Positions 16,756-34,377 of a stretch of 39,871 bases of DNA are shown here, in pieces. Each line of letters begins with the position of its first letter. Position 1 is the first letter of the stretch. Origin of the DNA: an uncultured Clostridia bacterium (GTDB lineage: Bacteria; Bacillota; Clostridia; Christensenellales; Aristaeellaceae); contig CAMKEI010000018.1 of assembly GCA_946411525.1 (NCBI GenBank), positions 1-39,871 of the forward strand, written 5' to 3'. Below the pieces are notes generated by a model. The model made no database searches and was not told where the DNA came from. It worked only from the letters and a program-made list of their open reading frames with translations. Made by a program: the position numbers and the translations under genes.

Positions 16756-17763
16756 TCAGAATATGCGGCCTTCCGAACCGGCTTTGTTGACACCGTTTTC
16801 CCAGAGATCGGCGTTTTTCCCCATTTTCGCCTTGAGCGTGCCGGACAGCGCATCCAGTTTTTCCAGCAGGTCTCCGGGGACGCTTGCCTCATAGGCGTCG
16901 AGATTCGCTTCCAGCTGCGCGATGCTGCGGCAGCCGGTCAGGATGCTGCCCACGCACTTCCGGCTCTTCAGGAACCCGAAAGCAAGCGCGGACATTGAAA
17001 GGCCGTTCTCCCCGCTGAGTCTTCGCAGTTCATCCAGGAACGCGAAAATATCCTGCTCAAAACCATGATCAGTATGGCGTCCGACGCCCCATTTGCTGTC
17101 ATACATGCGGTTTGCCCGGCGGTTCATGGGCACATCCTCCGGGGTCCTGAACTTGCCGGTCAGAAGCCCCTGCGCAAGCGGACTGTATGCCCAGACCGGG
17201 ATATGTTCCTCCTCAAGGACCGGACTCAGCTGTTCTTCCGCGAGACGCCAGATGAGGGAATAGGGCATCTGGTTCAGGACAACATTCCTCCCGCGCAGTG
17301 TTTCAGCACAGGAAAGCCCGTAATTGCAGACGCTGACCATACGGATCTTTCCCCGGACCTTCAGTTCCTCGAAAGCGTCGAAGGTCTCGTCAGGATCGAT
17401 ATCTGGATTGGGCCAGTGGATCTGGCAGATGTCCAGATAATCCGTTTTCATCCTCCGGAGGGAGGCCTCGCATGCCGCAATCACGTCGTCATGGCGCAGA
17501 TGGCTGGAATAGATCTTGTCCGCCAGGATAACCTTGTCGCGCCGCCCGGCAATGGCCTCTCCGACGACCTGCTCGGCGCGTCCGTCGCCGTAACGCTCGG
17601 CCGTATCAATCAGGTTGATTCCCCGTTCGATAGCTTCCCGGAGGGTTGCCACCGCAGAATCCCTGTCGCAGGAACCCCAGAGGCTGACGTCCGCGTAGGA
17701 CCAGGTTCCGAGGCTGAGCCCGGATATTCTGGTTTTTCCGTCATTCAGCAGCGTATAATCCAT
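16756..17763 (-). CDS. aldo/keto reductase
   Basis: A 335-residue NAD(P)H-dependent aldo/keto reductase (TIM barrel). The catalytic tetrad is complete: Asp53 and Tyr58 in NLIDTAERYGDG, Lys83 in ILADKI and His116 in CQIHWPN. The C-terminal coenzyme site SILTGCRSIAQLEAN is typical. It belongs to the general AKR/Tas-like group without an Fe-S tail. The ATG at 17763 is preferred over an in-frame GTG three codons earlier because AGAGGTG precedes it. It lies downstream of the transketolase pair beyond a large inverted repeat, and so probably uses a short read-through or its own promoter. In this context it may reduce or oxidise a sugar-derived carbonyl in the catabolic locus. Confidence 0.9.
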   Translation of the reverse strand: MDYTLLNDGKTRISGLSLGTWSYADVSLWGSCDRDSAVATLREAIERGINLIDTAERYGDGRAEQVVGEAIAGRRDKVILADKIYSSHLRHDDVIAACEASLRRMKTDYLDICQIHWPNPDIDPDETFDAFEELKVRGKIRMVSVCNYGLSCAETLRGRNVVLNQMPYSLIWRLAEEQLSPVLEEEHIPVWAYSPLAQGLLTGKFRTPEDVPMNRRANRMYDSKWGVGRHTDHGFEQDIFAFLDELRRLSGENGLSMSALAFGFLKSRKCVGSILTGCRSIAQLEANLDAYEASVPGDLLEKLDALSGTLKAKMGKNADLWENGVNKAGSEGRIF

Positions 17764-17779
17764 GAATAACACCTCTTGA

Positions 17780-17900
17780 TAAAAACAGCCTCAAAACACT
17801 TGTTCATACGCCGGACTGATCAGTAACAGTGAGAGCGGAGTGACGCTACGCACTGTGGAGTATTACGTATGAAACAGTTGATGTTTTGAGGCAGTTTTTT
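17780..17900. repeat. 121-base imperfect inverted-repeat element between transketolase and aldo/keto reductase genes
   Basis: Two ~30-base arms (about 17780-17810 and 17866-17900) pair almost completely: GCCTCAAAACA with TGTTTTGAGGC and CATACG with CGTATG. A nested hairpin, ACAGTG...CACTGT, lies inside. On the minus strand the outer stem is followed by GTTTTTAT, so it can act as a terminator between the two genes. Size and symmetry also fit a MITE-like repeat. No open reading frame lies inside. Confidence 0.6.
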
Positions 17901-17912
17901 GAGTTTACCGTT

Positions 17913-18848
17913 TTATTTCCTGGCGATGGTTTCCTTCACCTTTCCGGCGATGGCAGCAGCGTCCAGCCCGTATTTCTCGAGCAGCTTGCTGTAGGGGCCG
18001 CACTCACCGTGCCTGTCCTGCATACCGACAAAGCCCATCGGCGCGCCGATGCCGCTTTCCGCCAATGCCTCGGCAACCGCGCCGCCCAGGCCGCCGATAA
18101 TGCTGTGTTCCTCGGCGGAGATGATAGCGCCGGTCTCCTTTGCGCAGCGGGCGACCAGTTCCTTGTCAAGAGGCTTGATGCAGAACATATCCACAACGCG
18201 CAGGCTGATGCCTTCCTTCTCCAGTTCCTCAGCGGCCTTCAGCGCGTTGCCGACCATGATGCCGCATCCGATGACCGTCGCGTCTTTGCCTTCACGCACA
18301 ATGCGTCCTTTGCCTTCCTCGAAGGTTTCTCCGGGCTGGTAGACATCCGGGAACGCGTCGCGGGAGAAGCGCAGGTACATGGGGGAAGGATCCTCGATGG
18401 CGTTCTTCACAACCCAGTCGGTCTGGACTGCGTCGCAGGGTACGAAGACCTTAAACCGCGGCAGCGTGCGCATGATGGCGATATCCTCCAGCGCGTGATG
18501 GGTTGGACCGTCGTAAGCGTCGGACAGGCCGCCGTAGGCGCCGCACATCTTCACCGGGATATCGGCGTAGGAACCGAACGCCCGCGCGGGCAGCAGGCCA
18601 AGTGTAGTGACGAACACCGCGAAAGTGTTCACGAAGGGGATTTTCCCCGCGGCGGCCATGCCGCAGGCGCAGGCAGTCATGCCCGCTTCGGCAATGCCCA
18701 TATTGAAGAACCGGTCGGGGCACGCCTTGCCGAAAACAGCGGATTTTGTGGAACCGCTGACGTCCGCGTCCAGTACGACGACATCCTTGTTCAGCTGGCC
18801 GTATTTAGCCAGTGATTCGCCGTATACATCACGAATTGCCTTAGCCAT
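17913..18848 (-). CDS. transketolase, C-terminal subunit
   Basis: A 311-residue half-transketolase that pairs with the N-terminal subunit encoded just before it; together they transfer two-carbon ketol units using thiamine diphosphate. It contains the pyrimidine-binding domain, with the cofactor-activating Glu54 in MGIAEAGM and the DAYDGPTHHALEDIA loop, then the C-terminal transketolase domain (IGCGIMVGNALKAAEEL, EEHSIIGGLG). Start ATG shares one base with the stop of the upstream subunit (TAATG), giving coupled translation. Split transketolases of this kind serve both central metabolism and dedicated sugar pathways such as apiose use; co-location with a GntR regulator and carboxylate genes suggests a dedicated role here. 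Confidence 0.93.
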   Translation of the reverse strand: MAKAIRDVYGESLAKYGQLNKDVVVLDADVSGSTKSAVFGKACPDRFFNMGIAEAGMTACACGMAAAGKIPFVNTFAVFVTTLGLLPARAFGSYADIPVKMCGAYGGLSDAYDGPTHHALEDIAIMRTLPRFKVFVPCDAVQTDWVVKNAIEDPSPMYLRFSRDAFPDVYQPGETFEEGKGRIVREGKDATVIGCGIMVGNALKAAEELEKEGISLRVVDMFCIKPLDKELVARCAKETGAIISAEEHSIIGGLGGAVAEALAESGIGAPMGFVGMQDRHGECGPYSKLLEKYGLDAAAIAGKVKETIARK

Positions 18849-19681
18849 TACAGAACACCTCCCAGTTCCTTCATCGCCTGCTCATAGCTGGCGTCGTCGA
18901 TCGCCTTGCCGTGCCAGGCGTTTTTGCCTTCCATGAATGAAACGCCCTTGCCCTTGACGGTGTGCGCCAGGATAATGGTCGGCACGCCCTTGACGGTCTT
19001 GGCGGTTTCCAGCGCCTCATAGAGTGCCTCGATATCGTGCCCGTCGCACTGGATCACATGCCAGCCAAAGGACGCGAACCGTTCGGGGATATTGTGCATA
19101 GGCATGATATCCTCGGTCACGCCGTCCAGCTGTACGCCGTTCCAGTCCAGAATGGCGCACAGGTTGTCCGCCTTGAACTTCACGGCGGCCATCAGGCCTT
19201 CCCATATGGTTCCCTCGTTGATTTCACCGTCGCCCAGCACGCAGTAAACACGCTTGTCCAGGCCGTCCAGCTTCATGGCGAGAGCCATGCCCAGCGCTGC
19301 GGACAGGCCGATGCCCAGCGGGCCGGAAGTGATTTCCACGCCGGGAGTGTCCAGCGGGTTGGGATGGCCCTGCAGCCGGGAATCCAGGCAGCGCAGCGTC
19401 GCCATCTCCTCCACGGGGAAGAAGCCTTTTTCAGCCAGCACGCGGTACAGCGCCGGCGCGGCGTGTCCCTTGCCGAGCACAAGGCGGTCGCGGTCCGGTT
19501 TCTTCGGGTTCGCCGGATCCACGTCCATCTGTGTGAAGTACAGGGTGGTCAGGATTTCCAGCACGGACAGCGATCCGCCGGGATGGCCGGTCTGCCGCTG
19601 GTGCAGCGTCTCGATCAGGTCGATTCGGAACTGATGGCAGAGCTTTTCAAGCCTTGCCTTCTCTTCCACGGGTAATTTCAT
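18848..19681 (-). CDS. transketolase, N-terminal subunit
   Basis: A 277-residue protein covering the diphosphate-binding domain of transketolase. Visible features are TGHPGGSLS at 31-39, GKGHAAPALY at 70-79, GHPNPLDTPGVEITSGPLG at 105-123, and the thiamine diphosphate motif GDGEINEG (150-157) ending at Asn181 (DWNGVQLDG). The ATG at 19681 is set by AAGGAGG nine bases upstream; a longer frame to 19786 would run into the gntR 3' end and lacks a ribosome site. It follows gntR by 61 bases and overlaps the C-terminal subunit gene by one base, making a gntR-tktN-tktC operon. Confidence 0.94.
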   Translation of the reverse strand: MKLPVEEKARLEKLCHQFRIDLIETLHQRQTGHPGGSLSVLEILTTLYFTQMDVDPANPKKPDRDRLVLGKGHAAPALYRVLAEKGFFPVEEMATLRCLDSRLQGHPNPLDTPGVEITSGPLGIGLSAALGMALAMKLDGLDKRVYCVLGDGEINEGTIWEGLMAAVKFKADNLCAILDWNGVQLDGVTEDIMPMHNIPERFASFGWHVIQCDGHDIEALYEALETAKTVKGVPTIILAHTVKGKGVSFMEGKNAWHGKAIDDASYEQAMKELGGVL

Positions 19682-19742
19682 GGGTTGCCGCCTCCTTATA
19701 AATATGATGTCATTTCCGCGCAACCGGCACGGAACAGGGAAA

Positions 19743-20426
19743 TCATTTTGTGTCGCTGCTGCAGACAGCGCGCATCGCTTCGTCAATATGCTCCAGCATA
19801 TGACGACGGGCAGCTTCCATGTCGCGGCTCTGGATCGCCAGGAATATCTGCCGGTGGAAATACACGCCTGTCTTCTTCATGTGGCTGACGTTCTGCATGA
19901 ACATCTCGGAATAGGTGGGTTTCATCACGTCGAATATACCCTGGATGATCATATTGCCGCTGCAGCGTGCAATCAGCTGATGGAACCGCATGTCATACTC
20001 GGCGGTTTCCTTGTCGGTTACAGCCTGTGCCATACCCGTAATGCTCTCCTCGATCTCAGCCGCGTCTTCGGCGGTGGCGCGGATAGCGGCCAGGGCAGCG
20101 GATTCGCTTTCGATGATCTTGCGGAATTCAAACACGTCCAGCCGGCTGGCGCCGTTGATGTGAAGCACGGCCTCAGCGTGTTCCCGGGGCATGTTGTTGG
20201 TGACAAAAGTTCCTTTGCCCTGGAAGCTCTGCGCCAGCCCCAGCCCGTTCAGCCGCTCGATGGCGCTGCGGACGGTCGACCGGCTGGCGTCCAGTTCCCG
20301 GCACAGTTCAGCCTCTGACGGCAGCTTGTCGCCTGTTTTCCACCGGCCGGTACGGATGCCGTCCGCCAGATACTGATACACGCTGTCTGACAAGCGTTTG
20401 AGAGACTGCGGGGCAATCTGCCTCAT
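19743..20426 (-). CDS. GntR-family transcriptional regulator (FadR/FCD subfamily)
   Basis: A 227-residue repressor or activator with an N-terminal winged helix (about 8-80; KLPSEAELCRELDASRSTVRSAIERLNGLGL and QGKGTFV) and a helical FCD ligand domain (about 100-220). FCD metal/ligand residues are present: FEFRKIIESESAALAA, DMRFHQLIARCSGN and a later His-rich stretch. FadR-subfamily proteins sense carboxylates such as sugar acids, which fits the surrounding Tct and dehydrogenase genes. The ATG at 20426 has GTGGAGG six bases upstream. It heads the transketolase operon and faces the large divergent control region, where several TTGT-type repeats could be its operators. Confidence 0.92.
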   Translation of the reverse strand: MRQIAPQSLKRLSDSVYQYLADGIRTGRWKTGDKLPSEAELCRELDASRSTVRSAIERLNGLGLAQSFQGKGTFVTNNMPREHAEAVLHINGASRLDVFEFRKIIESESAALAAIRATAEDAAEIEESITGMAQAVTDKETAEYDMRFHQLIARCSGNMIIQGIFDVMKPTYSEMFMQNVSHMKKTGVYFHRQIFLAIQSRDMEAARRHMLEHIDEAMRAVCSSDTK

Positions 20427-20443
20427 GTTAACCTCCACAAATG

Positions 20444-20454
20444 TTCAGACAAAT
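20444..20454 (-). promoter_or_regulatory. putative GntR operator, inverted copy of ATTTGTCTGAA
   Basis: The 11-mer ATTTGTCTGAA occurs here on the minus strand, between the gntR promoter and its ribosome site, and again on the plus strand at 20740-20750. This suggests autoregulation. Confidence 0.4.
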
Positions 20455-20503
20455 TATGCGATATGTCAGTAAAAAAACCAACAAACAAAACACTTCTGGT
20501 AAA

Positions 20504-20532
20504 AATATAAGCGAAAAGCAGCTGCTTGTCAA
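20504..20532 (-). promoter_or_regulatory. promoter of gntR-transketolase operon
   Basis: On the minus strand a consensus TTGACA (20527-20532), an exact 17-base spacer and TATATT (20504-20509), about 80 bases before the gntR ATG. Confidence 0.7.
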
Positions 20533-20575
20533 GGGTTTTGTCCTGCAGCGGGAAATGTTATATGTCGTAATAAAG

Positions 20576-20586
20576 TTGTCATACAA
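20576..20586. promoter_or_regulatory. palindromic putative GntR operator TTGTCATACAA
   Basis: TTGT-CAT-ACAA is a perfect inverted repeat of the TNGTNNNACNA form known for FadR-subfamily regulators, placed between the two divergent promoters. Confidence 0.5.
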
Positions 20587-20739
20587 CAACTAGTAAAAAA
20601 AGGAGACATGTCAAATAAGCCAGGGCGTGTTGTGAGGAATAACCCATGAAAAAGTAGCAATCCGGGCGGTATTGTCCAAGTCCTTTAAAGCTTATTAACA
20701 AATGCGTAACGAAATATAATCACGCCCGCCGGTCAACAG

Positions 20740-20750
20740 ATTTGTCTGAA
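20740..20750 (+). promoter_or_regulatory. putative GntR operator ATTTGTCTGAA
   Basis: Exact second copy of the 11-mer seen in the gntR leader, 20 bases upstream of the -35 of the rightward promoter. Looser relatives lie further right, in the leader: TTGTCATTCAA (20862-20872), TTGTATGACCT (20943-20953) and TTTGTATGAA (20965-20974). Confidence 0.4.
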
Positions 20751-20769
20751 AATCGTATGATAAATTCTA

Positions 20770-20798
20770 TTGACACCACTTGTAGGATATGATATGAT
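20770..20798 (+). promoter_or_regulatory. promoter of the rightward catabolic operon
   Basis: TTGACA (20770-20775), a 17-base spacer, and TATGAT (20793-20798). Transcription should start near 20805, leaving a leader of ~218 bases before the first ATG at 21023. The whole stretch 20427-21022 encodes no credible protein; it carries the two promoters, the repeats listed and this long leader. Confidence 0.75.
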
Positions 20799-21022: not shown

Positions 21023-21913
21023 ATGAAAGATTCCATCCACAAGTATTTTCAGGTAGGAACGATCCAGTGGATGAGCTATCCCAAGCGCGATCCCATGGAG
21101 TCCCTGAAAGCCATCTGCCGTGACGATTACTTTGACGCCATCGAACTGAAAGGATATGGCGAGAAGAACGCCGAGGCGAAGGCCTTGCTTGACCAGAGTC
21201 ACCTGAAGGTATGCTACGGCGCGCAGCCCCGGCTGCTGGGGCCGAAGCTGAACCCCAACGCCATCGACGAAGCTGAGCGCCTGAAGGCTGAAGCCACGCT
21301 GATCGAGGCCGTGGATGAGGCGGAGTTCCTCGGTGCGAGGGGGATCGCTTTCCTGGCCGGCAAATGGGAACAGGAAACCAAGGATCAGGCCTATGCCCAG
21401 CTGCTGAAGACCACGCGCAGTGTCTGCGATTATGCCGCCAAAAAAGGCATGAACGTCGAACTGGAAGTATTCGACTTCGACATGGACAAGGCTGCGCTGA
21501 TCGGCCCCGCCCCCTATGCCGCCCGGTTCGCCGCGGACATGCGTACGACCCACAGCAATTTCGGCCTGTTGGTGGACCTGAGCCACTTCCCCACCACCTA
21601 CGAAACCAGCCAGTTTGTGATCCGCACGCTGCGCCCCTACATCACCCATTTCCACTTCGGCAACGCCGTGGTCAAACCCGGATGTGACGGTTACGGCGAC
21701 CTGCATCCCCGCTTCGGCTATCCCAACAGCGCCAATGACACGCCTGAGCTGCTGGACTATCTGCGGGTGCTGAAGCAGGAGGGCTTCTTCGACGCCGAAA
21801 AGCCCTATGTCCTGTCAATGGAAGTGACGCTCCGGCCCGGTGAGGACGAGGACATTGTGTTGGCAAACACGAAACGGGTGCTGAACCGCGCGTGGGCGCT
21901 GCTTGAAGACTGA
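21023..21913 (+). CDS. sugar phosphate isomerase/epimerase-like TIM barrel (copy A1)
   Basis: A 296-residue AP-endonuclease-2/xylose-isomerase-like TIM barrel. The four expected metal ligands are Glu148 (LEVFDFD), Asp185 (LVDLSHFP), His211 (THFHFGN) and Glu267 (SMEVTL), so it should be an active divalent-metal enzyme (isomerase, epimerase or the decarboxylases that share this fold). It is the first gene of the rightward operon, with AAAGGAGAGG before the ATG. It is a paralogue of the gene at 29055: both share SKYF/HKYF starts, the GPAPLAARFAA-type segment, GYGDxHPRFGxP and an identical LNRAWALLED C-terminus. Reaction and substrate are unknown. Confidence 0.88.
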   Translation: MKDSIHKYFQVGTIQWMSYPKRDPMESLKAICRDDYFDAIELKGYGEKNAEAKALLDQSHLKVCYGAQPRLLGPKLNPNAIDEAERLKAEATLIEAVDEAEFLGARGIAFLAGKWEQETKDQAYAQLLKTTRSVCDYAAKKGMNVELEVFDFDMDKAALIGPAPYAARFAADMRTTHSNFGLLVDLSHFPTTYETSQFVIRTLRPYITHFHFGNAVVKPGCDGYGDLHPRFGYPNSANDTPELLDYLRVLKQEGFFDAEKPYVLSMEVTLRPGEDEDIVLANTKRVLNRAWALLED

Positions 21914-21954: not shown

Positions 21955-22920
21955 ATGAAGATCGTTATTCTGGATGCGTATACTGAGAACCCCGGTGACC
22001 TGAGCTGGGCGCCCCTGGCAGAACTCGGCGAACTGACCGTTTATGACCGGACCTCCTATGCGGAGGATCCGATTATCGCGGAGCGCATCGGAGACGCTGA
22101 GGTCGTCATCATCAACAAGACTCCCATCAGCCGCGAGACGATTGACAAGTGCCCCAACATGAAGCTGATCGCTGTGCTGGCTACAGGCTACAACGTGGTG
22201 GATTACAATTATGCGAAGGAAAAGGGCATCCCGGTGGTTAACGTGCCCACCTACGGCACCATGTCCGTAAGCCAGTATTCCATCGCGCTGCTCCTGGAAA
22301 TCTGCCATCACATCGGCCATCACAGCGCCAGTGTTTATGCCGGCAACTGGGCCAACAACGTTGACTGGTGTTACTGGGATTATCCGCTGATTGAGCTGGA
22401 CGGCAAGACCATCGGTATCGTGGGCTTCGGCCGGATCGGCCAGGCTGAGGGCCGCATCGCCAAGGCCATGGGCATGAAGGTGCTTGCCTATGACCTCTAT
22501 CCCAACGACTTCGGCCGTGAAATCGGAGAGTATGTGGATCTGGATCGTCTGCTGGCCGAATCCGATGTCATTACGCTGCACTGCAACCTGACTCCTGAAA
22601 ACACCGGCATGATCAACAAGGACAGCATCGCCAAGATGAAGGACGGCGCGATCCTGATCAACAACGCCCGTGGCCAGCTGATTGTGGAACAGGATGTGGC
22701 GGACGCGCTGAACAGCGGCAAGCTGGCCGGCGCCGGCCTCGACGTGGTGTACACTGAGCCCATCAAGGCGGACAACCCGCTGCTGAAGGCGAAGAACTGC
22801 ATCATCACGCCCCATATCTCCTGGGCTCCCAAAGAGAGCCGCCAGCGCATCCTGGATTGCACCGTGGCGAACGTCAAGGCGTTTATCGAGGGCAATCCCG
22901 TGAATGTGGTCAACAAGTAA
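21955..22920 (+). CDS. D-isomer-specific 2-hydroxyacid dehydrogenase
   Basis: A 321-residue NAD(P)-dependent dehydrogenase of the glycerate/hydroxypyruvate/D-lactate group. The Rossmann motif GFGRIGQ lies at 157-163; the catalytic residues are Arg239 (NNARGQ), Glu268 (VYTEPI) and His287 (ITPHISWAP). Closest in character to glycerate dehydrogenase-type (HprA) members, with ATGYNVVDYNYA in the substrate loop. It likely interconverts a 2-oxo acid and a D-2-hydroxy acid formed in the pathway, for instance disposing of a hydroxypyruvate- or glyoxylate-like product; this is inference. It lies 41 bases after the TIM-barrel gene and 48 bases before the PdxA-family gene. Confidence 0.92.
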   Translation: MKIVILDAYTENPGDLSWAPLAELGELTVYDRTSYAEDPIIAERIGDAEVVIINKTPISRETIDKCPNMKLIAVLATGYNVVDYNYAKEKGIPVVNVPTYGTMSVSQYSIALLLEICHHIGHHSASVYAGNWANNVDWCYWDYPLIELDGKTIGIVGFGRIGQAEGRIAKAMGMKVLAYDLYPNDFGREIGEYVDLDRLLAESDVITLHCNLTPENTGMINKDSIAKMKDGAILINNARGQLIVEQDVADALNSGKLAGAGLDVVYTEPIKADNPLLKAKNCIITPHISWAPKESRQRILDCTVANVKAFIEGNPVNVVNK

Positions 22921-22968: not shown

Positions 22969-23973
22969 ATGAGTAACAAACCGATTATCGGCATACTGAT
23001 GGGCGATTCCGCGGGCGTCGGCCCGGAACTGGTGGCAAAGCTGGCAGCGAGCAAATTCTATGACGAATACTGCCGGCCGATCATCATCGGCGATGTGCGC
23101 ATCTTTGAAAACGCGCTGAAGGTCGTGGGCGGTGAAGCAAATCATTATGTGATCGCTTCCGCGGCCGAGGCGGACTGGGAGAAGGGACTGCCCGTGCTTG
23201 ACCAGCACGACCAGGATCCCGCCGAAGTGAAGATGGGTGAGTTCAACATGGTCTGCGCGAAGAGCGTGAACAACACGCTGGAGCTGGCCGTAAACATGTG
23301 CAAGAACGGCGAGATCGAAGGCTTCTGCTTCGCGCCTTTCAACAAGAACGGCATGAAGCTTGCCGGCTGCAAGTATGAAAGCGAGCACCATGTGATGGCT
23401 CACCTGTTCGGCGTACAGGATCAGCCCTTCGGTGAAATCAACGTCGCTGCCGGCATGTGGACCACCCGTACCACCAGCCACATCCCGATCAAGGAGGTTT
23501 CCAACAATCTGACCGTCGAACGCATCTTCCGCGCCATTACCCTGTGCCATACGACGCTGAAAATGGCAGGATTTGAGAACCCGCGTATCGGCGTGGCGGC
23601 GCTGAATCCCCACTGCGGCGAAGGCGGCCTCTGCGGCAGGGAGGAGATTGACGTGATCACTCCCGCAATCCAGAAGGGCATCGAAGCGGGCATGAATCCC
23701 TCCGGTCCCTACTCCTCCGATATCCTGTTTGTCAAGGCTTTCCGGGGCGATTTCGATGGCGTGGTGACCATGTACCACGACCAGGGCCAGATCGCACTGA
23801 AGCTGAAGGGATTCGACGGCGGCATCACCATTGCCGGCGGCCAGCCTGTTCCGGTTGTTACCTGCGGCCATGGTACCGCCTATGACATCGCGGGCAAGAA
23901 TATCGTTTCCCCGGCATCCTTTGAAAACGCTGTAAAGATGTGCAGCCAGATGGCGGTTCATAACCGCAGATAA
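22969..23973 (+). CDS. PdxA-family dehydrogenase (PdxA2/TphB-like)
   Basis: A 334-residue NAD-dependent oxidative decarboxylase family member. The three metal-binding histidines align with those of E. coli PdxA: His171 (TTSHIPI), His215 (LNPHCGEGG) and His270 (MYHDQGQIALK). GDSAGVGPE marks the N-terminus. Biosynthetic pyridoxine use is unlikely: the gene sits inside a carboxylate-uptake operon, whereas catabolic paralogues oxidise 4-phospho-D-threonate/erythronate (PdxA2) or a non-phosphorylated diol-dicarboxylate (TphB). The usual DUF1537 kinase partner of PdxA2 is absent here. The start ATG at 22969 has GGAAAGGAAAG upstream; an in-frame ATG at 22942 lacks a site. The tctB gene follows after 13 bases. 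Confidence 0.9.
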   Translation: MSNKPIIGILMGDSAGVGPELVAKLAASKFYDEYCRPIIIGDVRIFENALKVVGGEANHYVIASAAEADWEKGLPVLDQHDQDPAEVKMGEFNMVCAKSVNNTLELAVNMCKNGEIEGFCFAPFNKNGMKLAGCKYESEHHVMAHLFGVQDQPFGEINVAAGMWTTRTTSHIPIKEVSNNLTVERIFRAITLCHTTLKMAGFENPRIGVAALNPHCGEGGLCGREEIDVITPAIQKGIEAGMNPSGPYSSDILFVKAFRGDFDGVVTMYHDQGQIALKLKGFDGGITIAGGQPVPVVTCGHGTAYDIAGKNIVSPASFENAVKMCSQMAVHNRR

Positions 23974-27556: not shown

Positions 27557-28399
27557 ATGAAAATTTGCTATCAGGTGGCGACGCCGGACGTTGCTATCGC
27601 TGAATCTGTTACTGCATACCAGGGGCCGCTGGACAGGACGTTCGGGGACATTGCTGCTTTCGGCTACGACGGTGTGGAGCTGATGACCATTGACCCGATG
27701 AAGCTGGACTGGGCGCTGGTGAAAAAGACAGCGGAAGACCTGGGGATCGTTGTGGGCCTGGTCTGCACCGGAGAAATCTTTGGGCAGCTCGGCCTGAGCT
27801 TTGCTGATCCCGACGCCGGACGCCGTGCGGAATGCATCGCGCGCGTGAAAGGCATCATTGATTTCGCTGCCAGCCAGAATGCCAAGATCAATATCGGCCG
27901 CGTGCGCGGCCAGTACCGCCCCGGCATACCCCATGAGCAGACAGAGGAATGGGCTGTGGAGGCCTTCCGGGATATCAGTGATTACGCTGCACCGAAGGGT
28001 GTAATGATCGCCGTGGAAAACGTGACCATCATGCAGACAAACTTTATCAACACCATGGCGGAGGCGCGGCGGTTCGTTGAGCTGACGGATCGGCCCAACT
28101 TCAAAGCCATGATCGATGTATTCCATCTGAATATTGAGGAGAAGGATATCTACCAGGCCATCCGTGACTATGCCGATATCAATGTGCATGTGCACCTTGC
28201 TGACAATAACCGCCGCTATCCGGGACACTGCGGAATGGATTTCGAAAAGATCATTCAGACCTTCCATGATACAGGCTACGACGACCTGTTCTGCACCGAA
28301 GTCTTTCAGTACCCGTCCATGGAGGAATGCGCGAAGCGCGCCATCGCGTATCTGGCGCCAATCTTTGAAAAGGTCTACGGAAGGAGGCCGAAGGCATGA
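27557..28399 (+). CDS. sugar phosphate isomerase/epimerase-like TIM barrel (copy B)
   Basis: A 280-residue AP-endonuclease-2-fold enzyme, distinct from the A1/A2 pair. Metal ligands are Glu154 (AVENVT), Asp187 (MIDVFHLN), His213 (VHVHLADNN) and Glu248 (FCTEVF), with the conserved RYPGHCGMDFEKII segment typical of hydroxypyruvate-isomerase/epimerase-like members. AAGGAGAG lies before the ATG at 27557; a longer frame that starts inside the cupin gene has no ribosome site. The stop overlaps the next start by four bases (ATGA), so translation is coupled to the racemase-family gene. Confidence 0.9.
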   Translation: MKICYQVATPDVAIAESVTAYQGPLDRTFGDIAAFGYDGVELMTIDPMKLDWALVKKTAEDLGIVVGLVCTGEIFGQLGLSFADPDAGRRAECIARVKGIIDFAASQNAKINIGRVRGQYRPGIPHEQTEEWAVEAFRDISDYAAPKGVMIAVENVTIMQTNFINTMAEARRFVELTDRPNFKAMIDVFHLNIEEKDIYQAIRDYADINVHVHLADNNRRYPGHCGMDFEKIIQTFHDTGYDDLFCTEVFQYPSMEECAKRAIAYLAPIFEKVYGRRPKA

Positions 28400-29058
28400 A
28401 GCGCGTCGCGTGTATCCATACCGTCTACAGCGTCATCGCCGATTTCACCGGACAGCTGCGTTCGGCGCTGGGCGAAGACGTGAAGATCCACACGCTGTAC
28501 GACGATTTTCTGGCCACTGATCCGGCGGATACGGGGAAGTTCTCACCGATCAACCATGACCGCCTTCGGCTTGACATGCGGGCTCAGGCGCTGACCGGAG
28601 CGGATATCATCGTGGTCAGCTGTTCCACACTGTCACCTTCTGTACGGCTCCTTCGCCCGGAATTCAACGTGCCGGTGGTGGCCATCGATGACGCCATGGT
28701 GCGCGAAGCTGTCGCCAGGGGAAGCCGTATCGGTCTGTTGGCGACGGCCAACAGCACCGTTGAGCCTTCCCGCAGCGCACTGCTGGCTGCCGCGAAGGCC
28801 GCCGGCAAGGATGTGGATGTTCGGATCATCTGTGATGAGGATGCGATCCGCGCGCTGAAAGCGGGAGACCGCCCCAGACACGACCGCATGGTGCTGGAAA
28901 TGGCCGCACAGTTTGCCGACCGCGATGTCATCGTGCTGGCGCAGGCGTCGATGGCGCATATGGAGAAGGCTGTGGCTGAACAGATGGGCATTGCCACGCT
29001 CTCCTCGCCGGCCCGCTGCATTGCTGAAATTAAAACTATACTGGAGGCGATACCGTGA
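28396..29058 (+). CDS. aspartate/glutamate racemase-superfamily protein with one active-site cysteine
   Basis: A 220-residue member of the Asp/Glu/hydantoin racemase and arylmalonate decarboxylase superfamily. The first catalytic cysteine is Cys76 in VVSCSTLSPSV. Where racemases carry the second cysteine (LGCT), this protein has LAQASM with Gln183, so two-base racemisation is not expected. Single-cysteine members include decarboxylases and maleate-isomerase relatives, which fits a carboxylate pathway. Interior features are AIDDAMVREAVARGSRIGLLAT and RPRHDRMV. It overlaps both neighbours by four bases (ATGA and GTGA) and is thus translationally coupled to the TIM barrels either side. Confidence 0.85.
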   Translation: MKRVACIHTVYSVIADFTGQLRSALGEDVKIHTLYDDFLATDPADTGKFSPINHDRLRLDMRAQALTGADIIVVSCSTLSPSVRLLRPEFNVPVVAIDDAMVREAVARGSRIGLLATANSTVEPSRSALLAAAKAAGKDVDVRIICDEDAIRALKAGDRPRHDRMVLEMAAQFADRDVIVLAQASMAHMEKAVAEQMGIATLSSPARCIAEIKTILEAIP

Positions 29059-29966
29059 AAGACCCTGTCAGCAAATATTTCCGGATCGGACTGGTTGCCG
29101 GCATGGCTTACGCGCCGGCGCTGAAGGAGCTGGGCTGGGCGGAAATTACCCGGCGTATCGCGGCGGATGATTTTTTTGACGTGATCGAGGTCAATCCGCT
29201 GCCTGATAATGAATCACGCGAAGCGGTGCGGACGGTCGCAGGCATGGGCCACCTGCTTCTTTGTCAGAATGCCCATGGGCGGCTGATGGCCGCGGGACTG
29301 AATCCCAATGATCCGGATGAAGCCGGACGGATGAAGGCGGAGGCCGCGCTGATCGATGGTGTGGACGAAGCCGCGTCTTTAGGCATTTCCGCAATGGGAA
29401 TGCTGGCTGGGAAATGGACGCCGGAAACCCGGGAAACCTGCTTTGGACAGCTGAAAAAAACGGTCCTGAATGTATGCCGCTGTGCGCAGGCGAAGGGAAT
29501 TACCGTCGAGCTGGAGGTGTTTGATCACGACATCGCCAAAAAAGCGCTGCTCGGTCCCGCGCCGCTGGCAGCGAGGTTCGCCGCGGAGGTACGTGCCGAG
29601 GTGAATAACTTCGGCCTGATGGTTGATCTGTCACATATTCCGATGACCTATGAAACACCCGCGCAGGTGATTCCGGTGCTGAAACCGTACATCACACACC
29701 TGCACATGGGGAATACCGTCATTTTTGATCCTCAGGCGCCGGCCTACGGCGACGAGCATCCGCGCTTCGGCTTTCCGGGCAGTGAAAACGACGTGCCCCA
29801 GTTGACAGATTTTCTGCGCGAGCTGAGGAAAAATGGTTTCTTCGACGCGGAGAAGCCCTGTACGCTGACCTTTGAAATCAAGCCATGGACTGACGAGGAC
29901 ATCGATATTGTGATCGCCAACGCAAAACGGACGCTGAACCGTGCCTGGGCTTTGCTGGAAGACTGA
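29055..29966 (+). CDS. sugar phosphate isomerase/epimerase-like TIM barrel (copy A2, paralogue of A1)
   Basis: A 303-residue paralogue of the enzyme at 21023, with the same four metal ligands in register: Glu154 (LEVFDHD), Asp191 (MVDLSHIP), His217 (LHMGN) and Glu274 (TFEIKPW). Start is a GTG at 29055 that shares four bases with the preceding stop; GGAGG lies seven bases upstream. Divergence from A1 is concentrated in the first ~75 residues and the loop after His217, the parts that usually shape the substrate pocket, so it probably handles a related but different compound. It is the last gene of the rightward operon and is followed by a perfect-palindrome terminator. Confidence 0.9.
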   Translation: MKDPVSKYFRIGLVAGMAYAPALKELGWAEITRRIAADDFFDVIEVNPLPDNESREAVRTVAGMGHLLLCQNAHGRLMAAGLNPNDPDEAGRMKAEAALIDGVDEAASLGISAMGMLAGKWTPETRETCFGQLKKTVLNVCRCAQAKGITVELEVFDHDIAKKALLGPAPLAARFAAEVRAEVNNFGLMVDLSHIPMTYETPAQVIPVLKPYITHLHMGNTVIFDPQAPAYGDEHPRFGFPGSENDVPQLTDFLRELRKNGFFDAEKPCTLTFEIKPWTDEDIDIVIANAKRTLNRAWALLED

Positions 29967-29993: not shown

Positions 29994-30023
29994 AACCACC
30001 CTGAACCGCGGTTCAGGGTGGTT
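29994..30023. terminator. bidirectional terminator between the convergent catabolic units
   Basis: A 30-base perfect palindrome (AACCACCCTGAACCGC and its complement) with a T run on the minus strand side and a weaker one on the plus side. It separates the TIM-barrel A2 gene and the amidohydrolase gene. Confidence 0.88.
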
Positions 30024-30037
30024 GCTGTTTATGGACG

Positions 30038-31222
30038 TCAGCTTTCCAGCCGGATGGTTTTTCCGTGTTTCATGACAAAACGGACCCGGGACAGAGCATG
30101 CGGATCTTCCAGGGGGTCGCCGTCCACGGCAAGGAAGTCCGCCAGATAGCCGGAAGCGATCCGGCCCTTGATATCATGCAGGCCGGTCATGGCGGCTGCG
30201 TTGACGGTGACTGCCTTCAGGGCGTCCAGCTTCGACGCGCCGCCGGCAACTGCGTATTCCACTTCCTTGTACAGCATACCGTGATAGGCGTCCGTACCGA
30301 GGGTAAAACGGATCTTTCCGCTCTGGTAGACGCGGTTGATGCATTCCGTTGAATACGCCCGGGCTTTGCGCATTTTCTCGTTCTGGGCGGGCGGCGTATA
30401 GGCTTCCCGTCCTTCATCCAGAACAATGCCGGATGTCATGTCCACCCATCCGCCAAATTCATTCTCAAGGACCCTGATCTGCTCCGGAGATACGCTGTAC
30501 AGGTGATCAATGACATCGATGCCCACCTGAATGCAGATATCCAGGCCGCGTCCGCCAACGCAGTGGGCAGTGGTCCGGATGTTTGTGGACTTTGCCTCGC
30601 TGACGACGACCGACGCTTCTTCCGGCGTGATGAAACAGGGAATGAATTCGTCCGGGGAAGCCGCAGGTGTACCCGGGGTCATGAAAATCTTCAGATGATC
30701 CACCTTCCGGTACATGTTCTCCCGGCTGGTTTTCCGGAACTCTTCCACGCCGCAGTGAGGGAGTCCCACGAACCCGTGGCCGTGAGCGGCGCGCATGCCG
30801 ATGCCGCAGACCAGCAGGTCGGGACCGTCCACGCGTCCTTCTGCGATCATCTGCTTCATCTTTACATCGATGTAATTGCGGTCGCCCATGCAGCGCGCCG
30901 TAGTGACGCCGGAGAGGAGATCTTTTTTCAGGCCGTTGATTGCCAGTACGGTGTGCTCGCATTCAGACAGCTCCATCATGCCCAGATGCCCTTCCAGCCC
31001 GGCGTCAAGCGCCAGGTGATTATGGCATTCGAACAGGCCGGGAAGCAGCGTCGCGTCGCCAAGGTCAATGGTATCGACCTGATCCCTGATTGCCTCATAT
31101 TCGGCCGGGGAGAGGATGTCAAGGATCCTGTCTTCCTGCACCAGGACGCATGCGCGTTCCTGTTTTTTCAGGTTTTCACCGACAAGGACTCTGCCGGCAA
31201 GGATCACGTTCATTTTATTCAT
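30038..31222 (-). CDS. metal-dependent amidohydrolase (imidazolonepropionase/prolidase-like)
   Basis: A 394-residue amidohydrolase. The metal-site residues are His67 and His69 (LFECHNHL), Lys178 (DHLKIFMTPG), His220 (TTAHCVGG), His240 (IDHLYS) and Asp311 (LGTDAYHG). Lys178 suggests a carboxylated-lysine, two-metal centre like that of the prolidase (Sgx9260-like) group. The N- and C-terminal small beta domain is intact (TIDLGDATLLPGL; GYLADFLAVDGDPL). It should hydrolyse an amide, lactam or lactone. It is the last gene of the second, leftward tctC-B-A unit, 34 bases after tctA, implying the imported compound carries such a bond. Substrate unknown. Start ATG has AGGAGCG upstream. Confidence 0.88.
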   Translation of the reverse strand: MNKMNVILAGRVLVGENLKKQERACVLVQEDRILDILSPAEYEAIRDQVDTIDLGDATLLPGLFECHNHLALDAGLEGHLGMMELSECEHTVLAINGLKKDLLSGVTTARCMGDRNYIDVKMKQMIAEGRVDGPDLLVCGIGMRAAHGHGFVGLPHCGVEEFRKTSRENMYRKVDHLKIFMTPGTPAASPDEFIPCFITPEEASVVVSEAKSTNIRTTAHCVGGRGLDICIQVGIDVIDHLYSVSPEQIRVLENEFGGWVDMTSGIVLDEGREAYTPPAQNEKMRKARAYSTECINRVYQSGKIRFTLGTDAYHGMLYKEVEYAVAGGASKLDALKAVTVNAAAMTGLHDIKGRIASGYLADFLAVDGDPLEDPHALSRVRFVMKHGKTIRLES

Positions 31223-31256
31223 GATTCCAGCGCTCCTGTCTCATTGAAGTAATACC

Positions 31257-32765
31257 TTACTGTTCCTTCAGTTCTGCCGCTTCCTTTGCCTTTTTGTTCT
31301 TACGCAGCTTCATCTTGATCAGCGGATACACAAAGGAAAAGACGGTGAACAGGGTCAGCGCGGTAAACAGCGGCCGGGAGAACAGATCCAGCATACGGCC
31401 TTCATACATGGTCAGTGTGCGGGCAAGCGATTGCTCCATATTGGTGCCCAGCAGCAGCGCCAGCGCTACAGGTGAAGTGGGGAAATTGTTTCGTTGCATC
31501 AGGTAACCCAGCAGGCCGGCGCCGAACATCACCCATACATCGAAGATGCTCTTGCTGGTGGCATAGGTGCCCACCACCGCCAGAACCACAATGGTGGTGG
31601 CGAGAATGGATTTCGGGATGTACAGGATCAGGCTGCCGAACTTGCAGTAAATCATGCCGACGATATACATCAGCAGATTAATCAGGATAAATCCGATAAT
31701 CATCGTGTACACGACGCTCGCGTGCTGAGAGAACAGGGTCGGGCCCGGCCGGATGCCGTGGATAATCATGGCGCCCAGGAAGATCGCCGCGGGAGCCGAT
31801 CCGGGAATGCCCAGCGTCAGCAGCGGGATCAGCGATCCGCCGGTGGCGCCGTTATTTCCAGCTTCTGAAGCCACAATGCCTTCCACCGCGCCGCTGCCGA
31901 ATTTTTCGGGATGCTTGGATGCCTTCTTGGCTTCATTATAAGCCATGAACGCCGCAATATCCGGGCCGGCGGCCGGAATGATACCGATGCAGATGCCGAT
32001 CACCGCCGAACGGATGCCGTTGATCAGGTTGCCGAAGATCTCCTTCAGCGGCAATTTCATGGAGCCGACAGTACCGGTCTCCGTCATCTTGCCGTGCGGA
32101 TCTTCCAGCATCTTGAACACTTCCGGCAGGGAGAACAGCCCGATAAGCACCGGGACTACGGAGAAACCCCCGATCAGTTCCTTGAATCCGTAGGTAAACC
32201 GCGGGAATCCCTGAACTGGATCCTGCCCGAAGGTGGCCAGGACCAGGGAAATGATGGCGACCATCACACCCTTGAACAGGTTGTCTTCCGACAGCATAAT
32301 CACGACGGACAGGCCGAAAACAGCGACCATCATCTGCTCCGGCTGGCCCACCATCTTGGCGATCTGGGCCAGCAGCGGAGCGCAGATCAGAAGCGCGACG
32401 GCGCTCAGCGCTCCGCCGAAAACGGAGGACAGCGTCACATGATGCAGCGCGCGGCCGGCTTCACCCTTACGGACCAGGGCCTTGCCTTCCAGAGCGGTCG
32501 GCGCGCTTGCCGGCGTACCGGGAATACCCACCAGCACCGCCGGAATGGAGCCGCCGAAAACGCCGCCGCAGTACAGCGCGGAAAGCAGCAGCAGCGCCGC
32601 GCCGGGCTCCATCACATAGGTAAAGGGAACGAATATAGCCACAGCCATGGTCGCGGAAAAGCCCGGAAGCGCGCCGAATAGCACACCGACAAACAGGCCG
32701 CCGAGACATATCAGGATATTCATCGGCTGCAGCACGTTGGTAAAACCGAGTAAAATATCAGCCAT
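31257..32765 (-). CDS. tctA: tripartite tricarboxylate transporter permease (TctA, system 2)
   Basis: A 502-residue TctA-family permease with the same two-fold repeat as system 1: FGALPGFSATMAVAIFVPFTY and YCGGVFGGSIPAVLVGIPGTPAS in the first half, GIIPAAGPDIAAFMAYNEAKK and LLTLGIPGSAPAAIFLGAMIIHGIRPGP in the second. A charged lysine-rich tail (KLRKNKKAKEAAELKEQ) ends the protein. It is clearly diverged from system 1 rather than a recent duplicate. AGGGGGT precedes the ATG. It lies 16 bases after tctB2. Confidence 0.94.
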   Translation of the reverse strand: MADILLGFTNVLQPMNILICLGGLFVGVLFGALPGFSATMAVAIFVPFTYVMEPGAALLLLSALYCGGVFGGSIPAVLVGIPGTPASAPTALEGKALVRKGEAGRALHHVTLSSVFGGALSAVALLICAPLLAQIAKMVGQPEQMMVAVFGLSVVIMLSEDNLFKGVMVAIISLVLATFGQDPVQGFPRFTYGFKELIGGFSVVPVLIGLFSLPEVFKMLEDPHGKMTETGTVGSMKLPLKEIFGNLINGIRSAVIGICIGIIPAAGPDIAAFMAYNEAKKASKHPEKFGSGAVEGIVASEAGNNGATGGSLIPLLTLGIPGSAPAAIFLGAMIIHGIRPGPTLFSQHASVVYTMIIGFILINLLMYIVGMIYCKFGSLILYIPKSILATTIVVLAVVGTYATSKSIFDVWVMFGAGLLGYLMQRNNFPTSPVALALLLGTNMEQSLARTLTMYEGRMLDLFSRPLFTALTLFTVFSFVYPLIKMKLRKNKKAKEAAELKEQ

Positions 32766-32781
32766 GTCTTTGACCCCCTAT

Positions 32782-33240
32782 TCAGAATGCGATGTTGATC
32801 CACTTGCCTCTGGGCAGCACGACGCCCAGGAAATTGGTAAATACGAAATACAGCAGGCAGGTGAGAGCAACGGCAAGGATGATCATCAGGATCTTGTTTT
32901 TCAGCCTCAGGAAAAGCAGGGAGACAATCATGAAAACGACTGTGGAAATAATATAGCCCAGCTTGTCCATCAGCCAGATATAGGCGATGATCATCAGACA
33001 GTAAGGCACGATGGTCTTGGCCTGTTCCAGTACCTTGCTTTCAACCGCTTCCTCATTTTTCAGGCGAAGCAGGTTCCGGATCAGCAGATACAGCGTCATG
33101 ACGGTGGCAATGATCAGCAGTCCCAGGGGGAAGCCCCGGGAAATCTCCGGTATAGCCGGGACCTGTACGAACAATGTACCGAGGAAGATCAGCACGACAA
33201 TGCTGATAATCACATCCGGCATACTCTTCTTCATCTTCAT
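32782..33240 (-). CDS. tctB: tripartite tricarboxylate transporter small subunit (TctB, system 2)
   Basis: A 152-residue protein with four hydrophobic segments (DVIISIVVLIFLGTLFV, GLLIIATVMTLYLLI, IVPYCLMIIAYIWLM with the following GYIISTVVFMIVSLLFL, and ILMIILAVALTCLLYFVF). This is the TctB layout. Its position between tctC2 and tctA2 supports the call. AGGAGC lies about 12 bases before the ATG at 33240, a rather long spacing, so translation may start weakly or at the ATG two codons downstream. Confidence 0.88.
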   Translation of the reverse strand: MKMKKSMPDVIISIVVLIFLGTLFVQVPAIPEISRGFPLGLLIIATVMTLYLLIRNLLRLKNEEAVESKVLEQAKTIVPYCLMIIAYIWLMDKLGYIISTVVFMIVSLLFLRLKNKILMIILAVALTCLLYFVFTNFLGVVLPRGKWINIAF

Positions 33241-33305
33241 AATTCTAAGCAGCTCCTATATATTATCAGTTCAAAGACTGTCCGGGCGTTCTGAACCTCA
33301 AGAAA

Positions 33306-33345
33306 AGCGGATCATGATCTCAGGCCGGCTGTATCATGATCCGCT
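33306..33345 (-). terminator. intercistronic hairpin between tctC2 and tctB2
   Basis: A 13-bp perfect stem (AGCGGATCATGAT and its complement, 14-base loop) followed on the minus strand by TTTTCTT. It lies between the receptor gene and the membrane-subunit genes, so it would make the receptor transcript more abundant than the permease transcript. Confidence 0.65.
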
Positions 33346-33417
33346 GGTGCTGTTTGTTATGACTGATCAATCATGATGAGACAGTCTGTAAAAGCCTTTG
33401 CTGGAGTCGGACAGGAA

Positions 33418-34377
33418 TTACTGATCCTTGTTGGCTTCGTAGGCGGCCTTCACAGCCTCATGGTTTTCGGCAAAATAAACCTGGAAATCGTCGTAGCCCA
33501 TGTAATCCACTGTCACGCCGGCTTTTGCGGCTTTTTCAATGAATTCGGCGTTCCCGCAGGCACGGCCGACCGCTTCCGCGAACTCTTTCAGGGCTTCTTC
33601 GGGTGCGCCGGCTTTGGCGGCGAAACCACGCCACATGGTGGATTCAAATCCTTCGTAGCCAAGCTCGGCAACAGTGGGAACGTCGGGGAGCTGCGGGTTG
33701 CGCTCAGCGCTGGTGATGGCAATCCCTACAGCTTCGTTCGCGTCGAGGGCAGGCAGCGCTTCGGACACAAAGGGCGTCGCGACCGTGCAGTCACCGTTCA
33801 TGATGTCGGTCATGGCGGTGGCGCCGCCGTCATACACCAGGCGCTTATAGCTGGTGCCCGTAGCTTTTTCAAACTCAATCTTCAGGAAATCCCAGTGGGT
33901 CCAGGCGCCGCCGATGCCCCAGAGGGTTTTTCCGTCCTGGCCGGCCGCGATCAGATCTTCCAGATTCTTGATACCGGAGGCATTGGAAGCGACAATGACG
34001 TGTGGGTCAGCCGCGAAGCGGGCGACGGGAGCAAAATCTTCCAGCCCGTAGGTCACACCATCCAGCATGATGTTGCCGTTGGTGTCGGTGTTTGCGATAT
34101 AAGCCAGCGTCATGCCGTCAGCGTCCCCGGACAGCAACTGGTTCAGACCGATGGATCCGCCGCCGCCCGTGACGTTGATCACCGTGATGTTGCAGTTCAG
34201 TTCAGCCTTGACGTACTCGAGGATCAGCCGGCAGGCTACGTCGGCGCCGCCGCCTTCCTTCCAGGGAACGATGACCTCAACGGTCTTGCCCTCGTAGAAT
34301 CCCTCCGCGCTGGCTATCCCCATCGCGGATACGATCAATGCGAGTACCAGAACAATTGCGATACAGGTTTTCCTCAT
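33418..34377 (-). CDS. tctC: TctC-type extracytoplasmic carboxylate-binding protein (system 2)
   Basis: A 319-residue Bug/TctC receptor. Signal peptide at 1-24 (LALIVSAMGIASA, cleavage before EGFYEG), no lipobox. Fold markers are VEVIVPWKEGGGADVACRLI, NVTGGGGSIGLNQLL, VTYGLEDFAPVARFAADPHVIVA, GGATAMTDIMNGDCTVAT and VPTVAELGYEGFESTMWRGF. The binding loop with Cys and acidic residues differs from the system 1 receptor, so another ligand is likely. The ATG at 34377 has GGGAGGT seven bases upstream; an earlier in-frame ATG overlaps that site. First gene of the leftward unit with an attenuator hairpin downstream. Confidence 0.92.
   Translation of the reverse strand: MRKTCIAIVLVLALIVSAMGIASAEGFYEGKTVEVIVPWKEGGGADVACRLILEYVKAELNCNITVINVTGGGGSIGLNQLLSGDADGMTLAYIANTDTNGNIMLDGVTYGLEDFAPVARFAADPHVIVASNASGIKNLEDLIAAGQDGKTLWGIGGAWTHWDFLKIEFEKATGTSYKRLVYDGGATAMTDIMNGDCTVATPFVSEALPALDANEAVGIAITSAERNPQLPDVPTVAELGYEGFESTMWRGFAAKAGAPEEALKEFAEAVGRACGNAEFIEKAAKAGVTVDYMGYDDFQVYFAENHEAVKAAYEANKDQ

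Follow-up and report, generated by a model that had tools for sequence, protein, structure and literature searches.

A GntR-centred locus of an uncultured Clostridia bacterium as a possible kinase-independent, transketolase-based route for sugar diacids

Which compound is taken up and broken down by a gene cluster that joins two transporters, sugar-type isomerases and a split transketolase, and by what chemistry? We addressed this question for contig CAMKEI010000018.1 (assembly GCA_946411525.1) of an uncultured Clostridia bacterium from the gut, whose 39,871 nucleotides are called the window here (contig C18 of a 2.45-Mb genome that is 85% complete). A survey of open reading frames with Pfam and NCBIfam, in which gene starts were picked by ribosome-binding-site-like sequence, showed 18 genes forming a locus centred on a GntR regulator at 16756-34392. 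An earlier sequence-only reading had described a regulator-centred locus of seventeen genes; the regulator-centred arrangement stands, the count does not, and each gene family it named was confirmed at its position. It had further proposed that a polyhydroxy-carboxylate is taken up, isomerised, and then oxidised or decarboxylated, transketolase closing the route. The comparative loci described below fit the first part of this proposal, as do a PdxA-family enzyme without its phosphate site and a non-canonical transketolase motif. The transketolase itself probably acts in the middle, and the route would end in glycerate, by way of a TIM-barrel protein (TIM1), a D-2-hydroxyacid dehydrogenase (HADH) and a glycerate 2-kinase encoded on another contig.

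We carried out the comparison of gene neighbourhoods that the sequence-only reading had suggested, using relatives of TIM1 (21023..21913, + strand; PF01261, AP_endonuc_2). These were found in 80 and a further 12 loci of 3 to 21 kb each, which left 89 after removal of the near-duplicates L020, L066 and L067; all loci except five were sampled via TIM1, and many are related to each other. Since gene blocks recur in conserved order across other genomes, the arrangement of the locus is not due to chance. A split transketolase (TK) was present in 35 of the 89 loci and a gene similar to glyoxylate carboligase (Gcl) in 18, the acetolactate-synthase-like enzyme of L107 not being counted as Gcl. The other 36 had neither partner, and no locus had both within the sampled stretch. 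Relatives of HADH (21955..22920, +; PF02826, PF00389) were found in 32 of the TK loci and in all 18 Gcl loci. Cultured organisms that carry a related locus include Defluviitalea phaphyphila Alg1 (L072) and Proteiniclasticum ruminis (L086).

The two contexts were interspersed on a tree of TIM1 (85 rows: 36 TK, 18 Gcl, 31 neither), where the starred branches alone force seven changes of the Gcl label and 11 of the TK label. The labels were still more clustered than shuffled ones, as 0 of 500 shuffles for Gcl and 3 of 500 for TK gave values as low. TIM1 of the window is itself about 92% identical to relatives of either context (L035 with Gcl, L036 with TK). A relative at 69% identity was detected by tblastn in Enterococcus gilvus, where genes for an IclR regulator, a Gcl-like enzyme, a TIM barrel, HADH, glycerate kinase and a cupin lie near allantoinase; the first five parallel the allR-gcl-hyi-glxR set of E. 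coli. TIM1 and HADH are a portable module. Because TK and Gcl-like genes swap beside this module, with both settings intermingled on the tree, TIM1 most likely performs one reaction in either context, the isomerisation of tartronate semialdehyde to hydroxypyruvate, from which HADH would then yield D-glycerate.

The AlphaFold model of TIM1 (mean predicted local distance difference test, pLDDT, 86.8) matched ketose 3-epimerases and E. coli YgbM (1k77), and a PDB sequence search was empty at E 0.1. We rejected TIM1 as a plain Hyi orthologue: the Hyi family TIGR03234 matched neither TIM1 nor its paralogue TIM3, the third TIM barrel, TIM2, scored 66.5 bits against a cut-off of 353, and BLASTP of TIM1 against Hyi gave E 0.05. 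All three barrels contain a Glu-Asp-His-Glu pattern, which we take to be the metal site of this superfamily.

Gene content elsewhere supports glycerate as the exit. L106 encodes a tartronate semialdehyde reductase (above the NCBIfam cut-off) and a gene of cluster c22, whose scanned member is related to glycerate 2-kinase but scores below that model's cut-off. L103 and L104 combine c22 with a sugar-diacid regulator cluster, scanned in L104 and assigned by cluster in L103. In the window's own genome, a DUF4147-family gene above cut-off is found on contig C7 (best NCBIfam match glycerate 2-kinase, 244 bits against a cut-off of 550), and a PF02595-type glycerate kinase was not found. This kinase-family gene stands in a row (L122:7455-13142) with LarA (nickel-dependent lactate racemase), a sub-cut-off galactarate dehydratase-like gene and GntP, which by its gene families would be another sugar-acid locus. 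No glyoxylate carboligase was seen among the 18 proteins, and a search of the 85% complete genome with the E. gilvus Gcl-like query, run without a positive control, was empty. We are fairly confident of these last steps, in which TIM1 would convert tartronate semialdehyde to hydroxypyruvate, as the carboligase-like swap suggests, and HADH would reduce the latter to D-glycerate, as its context suggests, re-oxidising NADH formed earlier in the route; a glycerate 2-kinase encoded outside the locus would finish it.

With TK in the carboligase's place, its product would be tartronate semialdehyde, and this would require the five-carbon donor HOCH2-CO-CHOH-CHOH-COO-. The TK of the window is split into an N half with the thiamine diphosphate (ThDP) domain (18848..19681, -; PF00456) and a C half (17913..18848, -; PF02779, PF02780). 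Together they keep the equivalents of E. coli TktA His26, His66, His100 and His261 (N half), Glu411, Asp469 and His473, presumably the ThDP and catalytic residues. Among the relatives, His100 is replaced by Arg in L033, and Asp469 by Asn in L065 and L067. Five headgroup positions read RSFYR in 28 of 32 aligned C halves, the window's included, with Tyr replacing TktA His461. A C half was present in 33 relatives, of which L043 and L100 were outside the length filter of the alignment (L100, separately aligned, reads RSFYR); the 32 aligned rows include L020 and L078, apparently the same contig, and the near-identical L065 and L067. In the nearest solved chain, the split transketolase 6yaj, the fourth residue of the motif is His. 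According to PMC11659671, RSFHR denotes the canonical transketolase for phosphates and RAFDR the sulfofructose transketolase.

As a control we aligned 25 of 38 TK matches from eight genomes, the remainder being eight without a locus and five full-length frames. The motif was RSFYR in all five that adjoined a TIM1-family gene, and Tyr was present in none of the 20 other split TKs. The window's own genome has three transketolase-type pyrimidine domains, namely the window enzyme, a second split enzyme on C41 and a third protein, recognised by eye, that we take to be DXS. Split paralogues are numerous elsewhere. The 5.5-Mb genome G477 gave 16 transketolase matches, all but one in frames of 315-380 residues, the size of a split half; ten were aligned and one of these reads RSFYR. 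Split TKs with RSFSR recur in several Clostridia (L132, L134, L137, L143, L152, L172-L174) and, judged by motif, would be a class that is neither canonical, sulfo nor of the locus type.

Position 461 is a plausible donor switch because the TktA variant engineered for 5-keto-gluconate, R358I/H461S/R520Q, includes a change there (activity gain 55.3%, as given in PMC12016104). From context and motif we hold it rather likely that the RSFYR enzyme transfers a two-carbon ketol unit to an acceptor such as glyceraldehyde-3-phosphate, which would give xylulose-5-phosphate and tartronate semialdehyde. In L101, a gene of the transaldolase/fructose-6-phosphate aldolase (FSA) family adjoins TIM1-HADH and no TK lies within the stretch; acting on a 5-keto-hexonate, such an enzyme could also give tartronate semialdehyde, much as sulfo-transaldolase (sulfo-TAL) replaces sulfo-transketolase (sulfo-TK).

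The same logic, a split TK with an isomerase and a non-phosphorylated donor, underlies the sulfo-TK pathway as set out in PMC11659671, and the locus could be read as serving sulfoquinovose or a related sulfonate. A 2-phosphosulfolactate phosphatase-family gene lies directly 5' of TIM1-HADH-TK-TIM2 in L056 (8977-9927), and the racemase-like protein of the window (Rac) weakly matches cysteate racemase below the cut-off. We consider this reading very improbable, as the window has RSFYR where the sulfo-TK motif, according to PMC11659671, is RAFDR. Paralogues with RAFDR exist separately in three sampled genomes (L139, L150, L153), and no sulfonate-specific gene above cut-off was seen among the 18 proteins with Pfam and NCBIfam. 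The locus therefore failed the motif test for membership of the sulfo-TK pathway. No sulfoquinovose isomerase, SqwI, sulfoacetaldehyde reductase or sulfonate exporter was named among the 18 by Pfam or NCBIfam, the Sqw sequences themselves not having been searched.

A source for the proposed C5 donor is suggested by the PdxA-family gene (22969..23973, +; PF04166). In enzymes of the window type, Ser-Glu-His replaces the Gly-His-Thr of E. coli PdxA in all 14 rows, with Thr for Asn283 and Val or Ile for Arg292 in all 13 rows that reach there (Thr and Val in the window); the replaced residues are presumably the phosphate-binding site. One PdxA in the TK loci is an unrelated kinase fusion that keeps GHT, Asn and Arg (L070, a Spirochaetales metagenome-assembled genome); by eye, it is joined in-frame to an N-terminal DUF1537 kinase-like stretch. 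The window gene is followed by the first Tct transporter (TctB 23987..24448, PF07331; TctA 24464..25981, PF01970; TctC 26041..27003, PF03401; all +). Transporters of the Tct type carry D-glucarate, according to PMC13390454 (2026). Either a hexarate, or a lactone or amide of one that the amidohydrolase (AHase) opens, would be imported by Tct. PdxA, which on sequence grounds may decarboxylate the imported hexarate, would use NAD+ to oxidise the carbon in beta position to one of the carboxylates, and loss of CO2 would leave the 4-keto-pentonate HOCH2-CO-CHOH-CHOH-COO-. This step is put forward because of PdxA family chemistry together with the missing phosphate site, and its action on a hexarate is tentative, at somewhat below an even chance. 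In some TK loci without a window-type PdxA we found a zinc-dependent alcohol dehydrogenase (Zn-ADH) family gene (L070, L182 and, by cluster, L033) or a short-chain dehydrogenase/reductase (SDR) similar to KduD/gluconate 5-dehydrogenase (L028); acting on the penultimate carbon of a pentonate, these could give the same donor.

The PdxA relatives bring in two other substrates. The enzyme is 42.2% and 39.5% identical to PdxA of the plasmid loci L114 and L115, which also lack the phosphate-site residues. SMP-30, YncE and L-rhamnonate dehydratase are encoded in both loci, joined by cytochrome b561 in L114 and by an amidohydrolase in L115. The Cupriavidus ascorbate pathway, reportedly described by Stack in 2020, is said to have a gene set equal to the combined content of these two loci. 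On this analogy, the substrate would be a branched 2-carboxy-pentonate from ascorbate or dehydroascorbate breakdown, with AHase opening a lactone, PdxA removing the carboxylate, and the pentonate being oxidised before TK cuts it. Cytochrome b561, the SMP-30 lactonase and YncE are not among the 18 proteins (Pfam), and a redox-neutral PdxA would leave HADH without NADH and call for an extra pentonate 4-dehydrogenase, which makes the ascorbate route unlikely. A Pacificitalea PdxA, 42.8% identical, is accompanied by Tct and by a gene annotated as tartrate dehydrogenase. This points to a tartrate-like C4 diacid, from which PdxA would make hydroxypyruvate directly for HADH to reduce and for TK to take as ketol donor, hydroxypyruvate being a classical transketolase donor. 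We give this possibility little weight: TIM2 (20 of 35 TK loci, none of 18 Gcl loci) would be left without a role, and the changed position 461 would be unexplained because hydroxypyruvate has no headgroup.

In E. coli, a UxaA-PdxA gene pair was matched in 449 of 5426 genomes (446 over at least 80% of the pair), and in strain 4/1-1 a DHDPS-UxaA-PdxA-MFS set lies beside IclR near tRNA-Leu (L116:8085-13114). The PdxA of such a pair in L112 is also without the phosphate-site residues; the E. coli locus gave no clue to the substrate, and nor did a Thermus plasmid locus.

For the hexarate route, the stereochemistry of the keto-acid would have to be set before TK acts. TIM2 (27557..28399, +; NCBIfam IolO 207 bits, cut-off 300; closest solved structure TM_0416, 2zvr) resembles IolO and ketose 3-epimerases and is a candidate C3 epimerase of the keto-acid. 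Rac (28396..29058, +; PF01177) belongs to the Asp/Glu racemase superfamily, and its predicted structure has a hydantoin/glutamate racemase fold (mean pLDDT 93.5). The earlier description of Rac as a single-cysteine enzyme was borne out by all 14 aligned rows (L020 and L078 being apparently one contig), which keep the first active-site Cys (C76) and have Ala (A184) for the second. TIM2 would epimerise the ketone-adjoining carbon and Rac the carboxylate-adjoining one, so that between them they could set both stereocentres and produce the threo isomer needed by transketolase. TIM2 was found in 20 of the 35 TK loci and Rac and PdxA in 12 each, and none of the three in any of the 18 Gcl loci (Fisher p 2e-5 and 0.004, indicative only, as the loci are related).

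To reduce the dependence on TIM1, we also took PdxA as a query (E 1e-60) against 391 genomes of the class. Six genomes matched, including the window's own. Both relatives at 56-62% identity lie within a relative of the locus: L162, which shares its length and hits with L097 and is apparently that very contig, has the full gene set, and L163, from another family of the class, has PdxA, Tct1, TIM2, TIM3, Rac, AHase and Tct2 together. Three PdxA loci at 34-38% identity had none of the locus genes and gave no clue to the substrate. The content of L163 suggests that AHase-Tct2 is part of the upstream module, and that the upstream and TK modules are separable. The window could then hold two or three unrelated adjacent catabolic units, TK/TIM1/HADH, PdxA/Tct/TIM2/Rac and AHase/Tct2; this agrees with transcription units that are probably separate, a hairpin dividing the two convergent ones, and with G477, where the upstream module lies apart from the RSFYR TK. 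TIM2, Rac, TK, TIM1 and HADH form a single gene string in [Clostridium] citroniae L109, L077, L079 and others, and AHase-Tct2 accompanies PdxA-Tct-TIM2-Rac in both the window and L163, so we regard unrelated units as improbable.

Taken as a whole, the proposed hexarate route would convert a hexarate and glyceraldehyde-3-phosphate to CO2, xylulose-5-phosphate and D-glycerate and would be redox neutral. Its firmest part is the glycerate exit and its weakest the hexarate as substrate, which we infer. Because a chain is limited by its weakest step, confidence in the whole can at most equal that in the PdxA step, and we offer the complete kinase-independent carboxy-transketolase chain for a sugar diacid as a possible, on balance doubtful, scheme. 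A wider proposal comes a little closer to an even chance: that gut and rumen Clostridia hold a carboxylate-transketolase family in which keto-aldonates without a phosphate are cut by a dedicated RSFYR TK, or by a transaldolase, and the resulting tartronate semialdehyde is converted to hydroxypyruvate by isomerases of a new family. The keto-aldonates would come from diacids by PdxA or from aldonates by Zn-ADH or SDR, with no sugar-acid kinase, dehydratase or 2-keto-3-deoxygluconate (KDG) aldolase.

Several observations weigh against the proposed route. The neighbours of TIM1 are conditioned on TIM1 by the way the mostly related loci were collected, and more than a third of the loci (36 of 89) have neither partner, some of their contigs being only 3-8 kb. 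The Gcl-like enzymes have Glu at the position of E. coli Gcl Val51, and that of E. gilvus, while matching the Gcl model best, reaches 636 bits where the cut-off is 791, so we infer rather than read off the product of these enzymes. Tyr461 is missing from 4 of the 32 locus TKs (RSYHR in L059 and L095, RSFDR in L065 and L067), and one of the 20 non-Tyr paralogues (L136, RSYHR) adjoins an HADH relative. The RSFYR TK of G477 lies away from TIM1 (neighbours being counted within about 1.5 kb), among TRAP binding proteins, a PrpR-type regulator and Zn-ADH. The 19.9 kb of L163 contain no TK, TIM1 or HADH, and its genome has an RSFYR TK at another place, together with Zn-ADH. A gain of the size given in PMC12016104 implies that wild-type TktA is not inert on 5-keto-gluconate and that position 461 is not all-or-none. 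As 15 of the 35 TK loci are without TIM2 and 23 without Rac, the upstream part varies. The sole NCBIfam match of Rac is cysteate racemase, at 23 bits against a cut-off of 190; TIM3, the cupin and the aldo/keto reductase (AKR) are given no step; the host genome is only 85% complete; and the entire route, substrate and activities included, is read from sequence and gene context.

The genes are likely arranged in three transcription units. Two of these, GntR-TKN-TKC-AKR and TctC2-TctB2-TctA2-AHase, are on the minus strand and flank the third, TIM1-HADH-PdxA-TctBAC-cupin-TIM2-Rac-TIM3, which is on the plus strand. The GntR-FCD regulator (19743..20426, -; PF00392, PF07729) and TIM1 are separated by a putative divergent promoter region (20504..20798, both strands), predicted from consensus matches only. 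It comprises sigma-70-like matches TTGACA-17-TATATT at 20532-20504 (-) and TTGACA-17-TATGAT at 20770-20798 (+), each with 11 of 12 consensus positions, and the palindrome AGTTGTCATACAACAACT at 20574-20591. AKR (16756..17763, -; PF00248), the last gene of the GntR-transketolase operon, was not found at the matching position in the compared relatives. The plus-strand operon also holds the small cupin (27121..27543, +; PF07883; a 61% relative in L092) and TIM3 (29055..29966, +; PF01261), which is 52% identical to TIM1. Two long perfect or near-perfect hairpins without a T run occupy the TctC1-cupin gap at 27023-27083, possibly an mRNA-processing or attenuation element.

The second complete transporter (TctA 31257..32765, PF01970; TctB 32782..33240, PF07331; TctC 33418..34377, PF03401; all -) adjoins AHase (30038..31222, -; PF01979), which resembles Xaa-Pro dipeptidase and imidazolonepropionase and may open a lactone or amide. 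A 13-pair hairpin, terminator-like on either strand by consensus match only, lies at 29994..30023 between these genes and the convergent plus-strand operon, so the second Tct operon is probably transcribed on its own. A GntR operator common to both was considered and dropped, the palindrome having no obvious copy upstream of TctC2 in a non-exhaustive comparison by eye.

If the proposal is true, gut and rumen anaerobes have an additional route for sugar diacids and aldonates, and a TIM-barrel family acquires a function, 131 relatives having been counted in a genome collection by a single pattern-limited scan. Tyr at TktA position 461 would mark such TKs among many split paralogues, up to 16 matches in G477. 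There would also be natural enzymes for cutting keto-aldonates, a task now served by an engineered E. coli enzyme according to PMC12016104.

How does the locus compare with known systems? The sequence-only reading had found no match to a known pathway, and markers of the tetronate, apiose, sulfo-TK, Gcl-Hyi, ascorbate and glucarate/galactarate pathways were indeed missing from the locus; searches of the open-licence literature gave no paper that we recognised as a description of the gene set. Its statement that tetronate- and apiose-type kinases are absent also holds, as Pfam gave no such domain among the 18 proteins. The DUF1537 tetronate pathway was rejected on the lack of a four-carbon acid sugar kinase domain and on the SEH, Thr and Val of PdxA. 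The D-apiose and apionate pathways, defined by apionate or isoapionate kinase and a RuBisCO-like enzyme, were rejected since Pfam found none of these among the 18. For the classical glucarate/galactarate route, aldarate dehydratase and keto-deoxyglucarate aldolase are absent from the locus by Pfam.

PdxA/DUF1537 tetronate and PdxA-dependent ascorbate pathways share with the proposed route a PdxA-family oxidation adjoining a carboxylate, followed by decarboxylation; the window differs in having no DUF1537 kinase, replaced phosphate-site residues in PdxA, and no cytochrome b561, SMP-30 or YncE. The E. coli allR-gcl-hyi-glxR system, which the Gcl-context relatives parallel, has tartronate semialdehyde, hydroxypyruvate, D-glycerate and glycerate kinase in common with it, whereas TIM1 has no convincing similarity to Hyi and TK replaces the carboligase. 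Transketolase cleavage of 5-keto-D-gluconate to tartaric semialdehyde, engineered or putative in Gluconobacter and grapevine according to PMC11066805 and PMC12016104, likewise involves TK acting on a non-phosphorylated keto-aldonate, but a dedicated natural enzyme for a C5 keto-acid is proposed here. The closest likeness is to the SqwGH/SqwI sulfo-TK system of anaerobic gut Firmicutes, with a split TK, a proposed non-phosphorylated acidic ketose donor, glyceraldehyde-3-phosphate as acceptor, an isomerase that handles the leftover aldehyde, and a transaldolase that can substitute (sulfo-TAL there, L101 here). The differences are a carboxylate in place of the sulfonate, RSFYR in place of RAFDR, PdxA and Tct upstream, and glycerate that would enter central metabolism rather than be excreted. 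The locus thus probably works like the sulfo-TK pathway without being a member of it, and is best modelled as its redox-neutral carboxylate counterpart.

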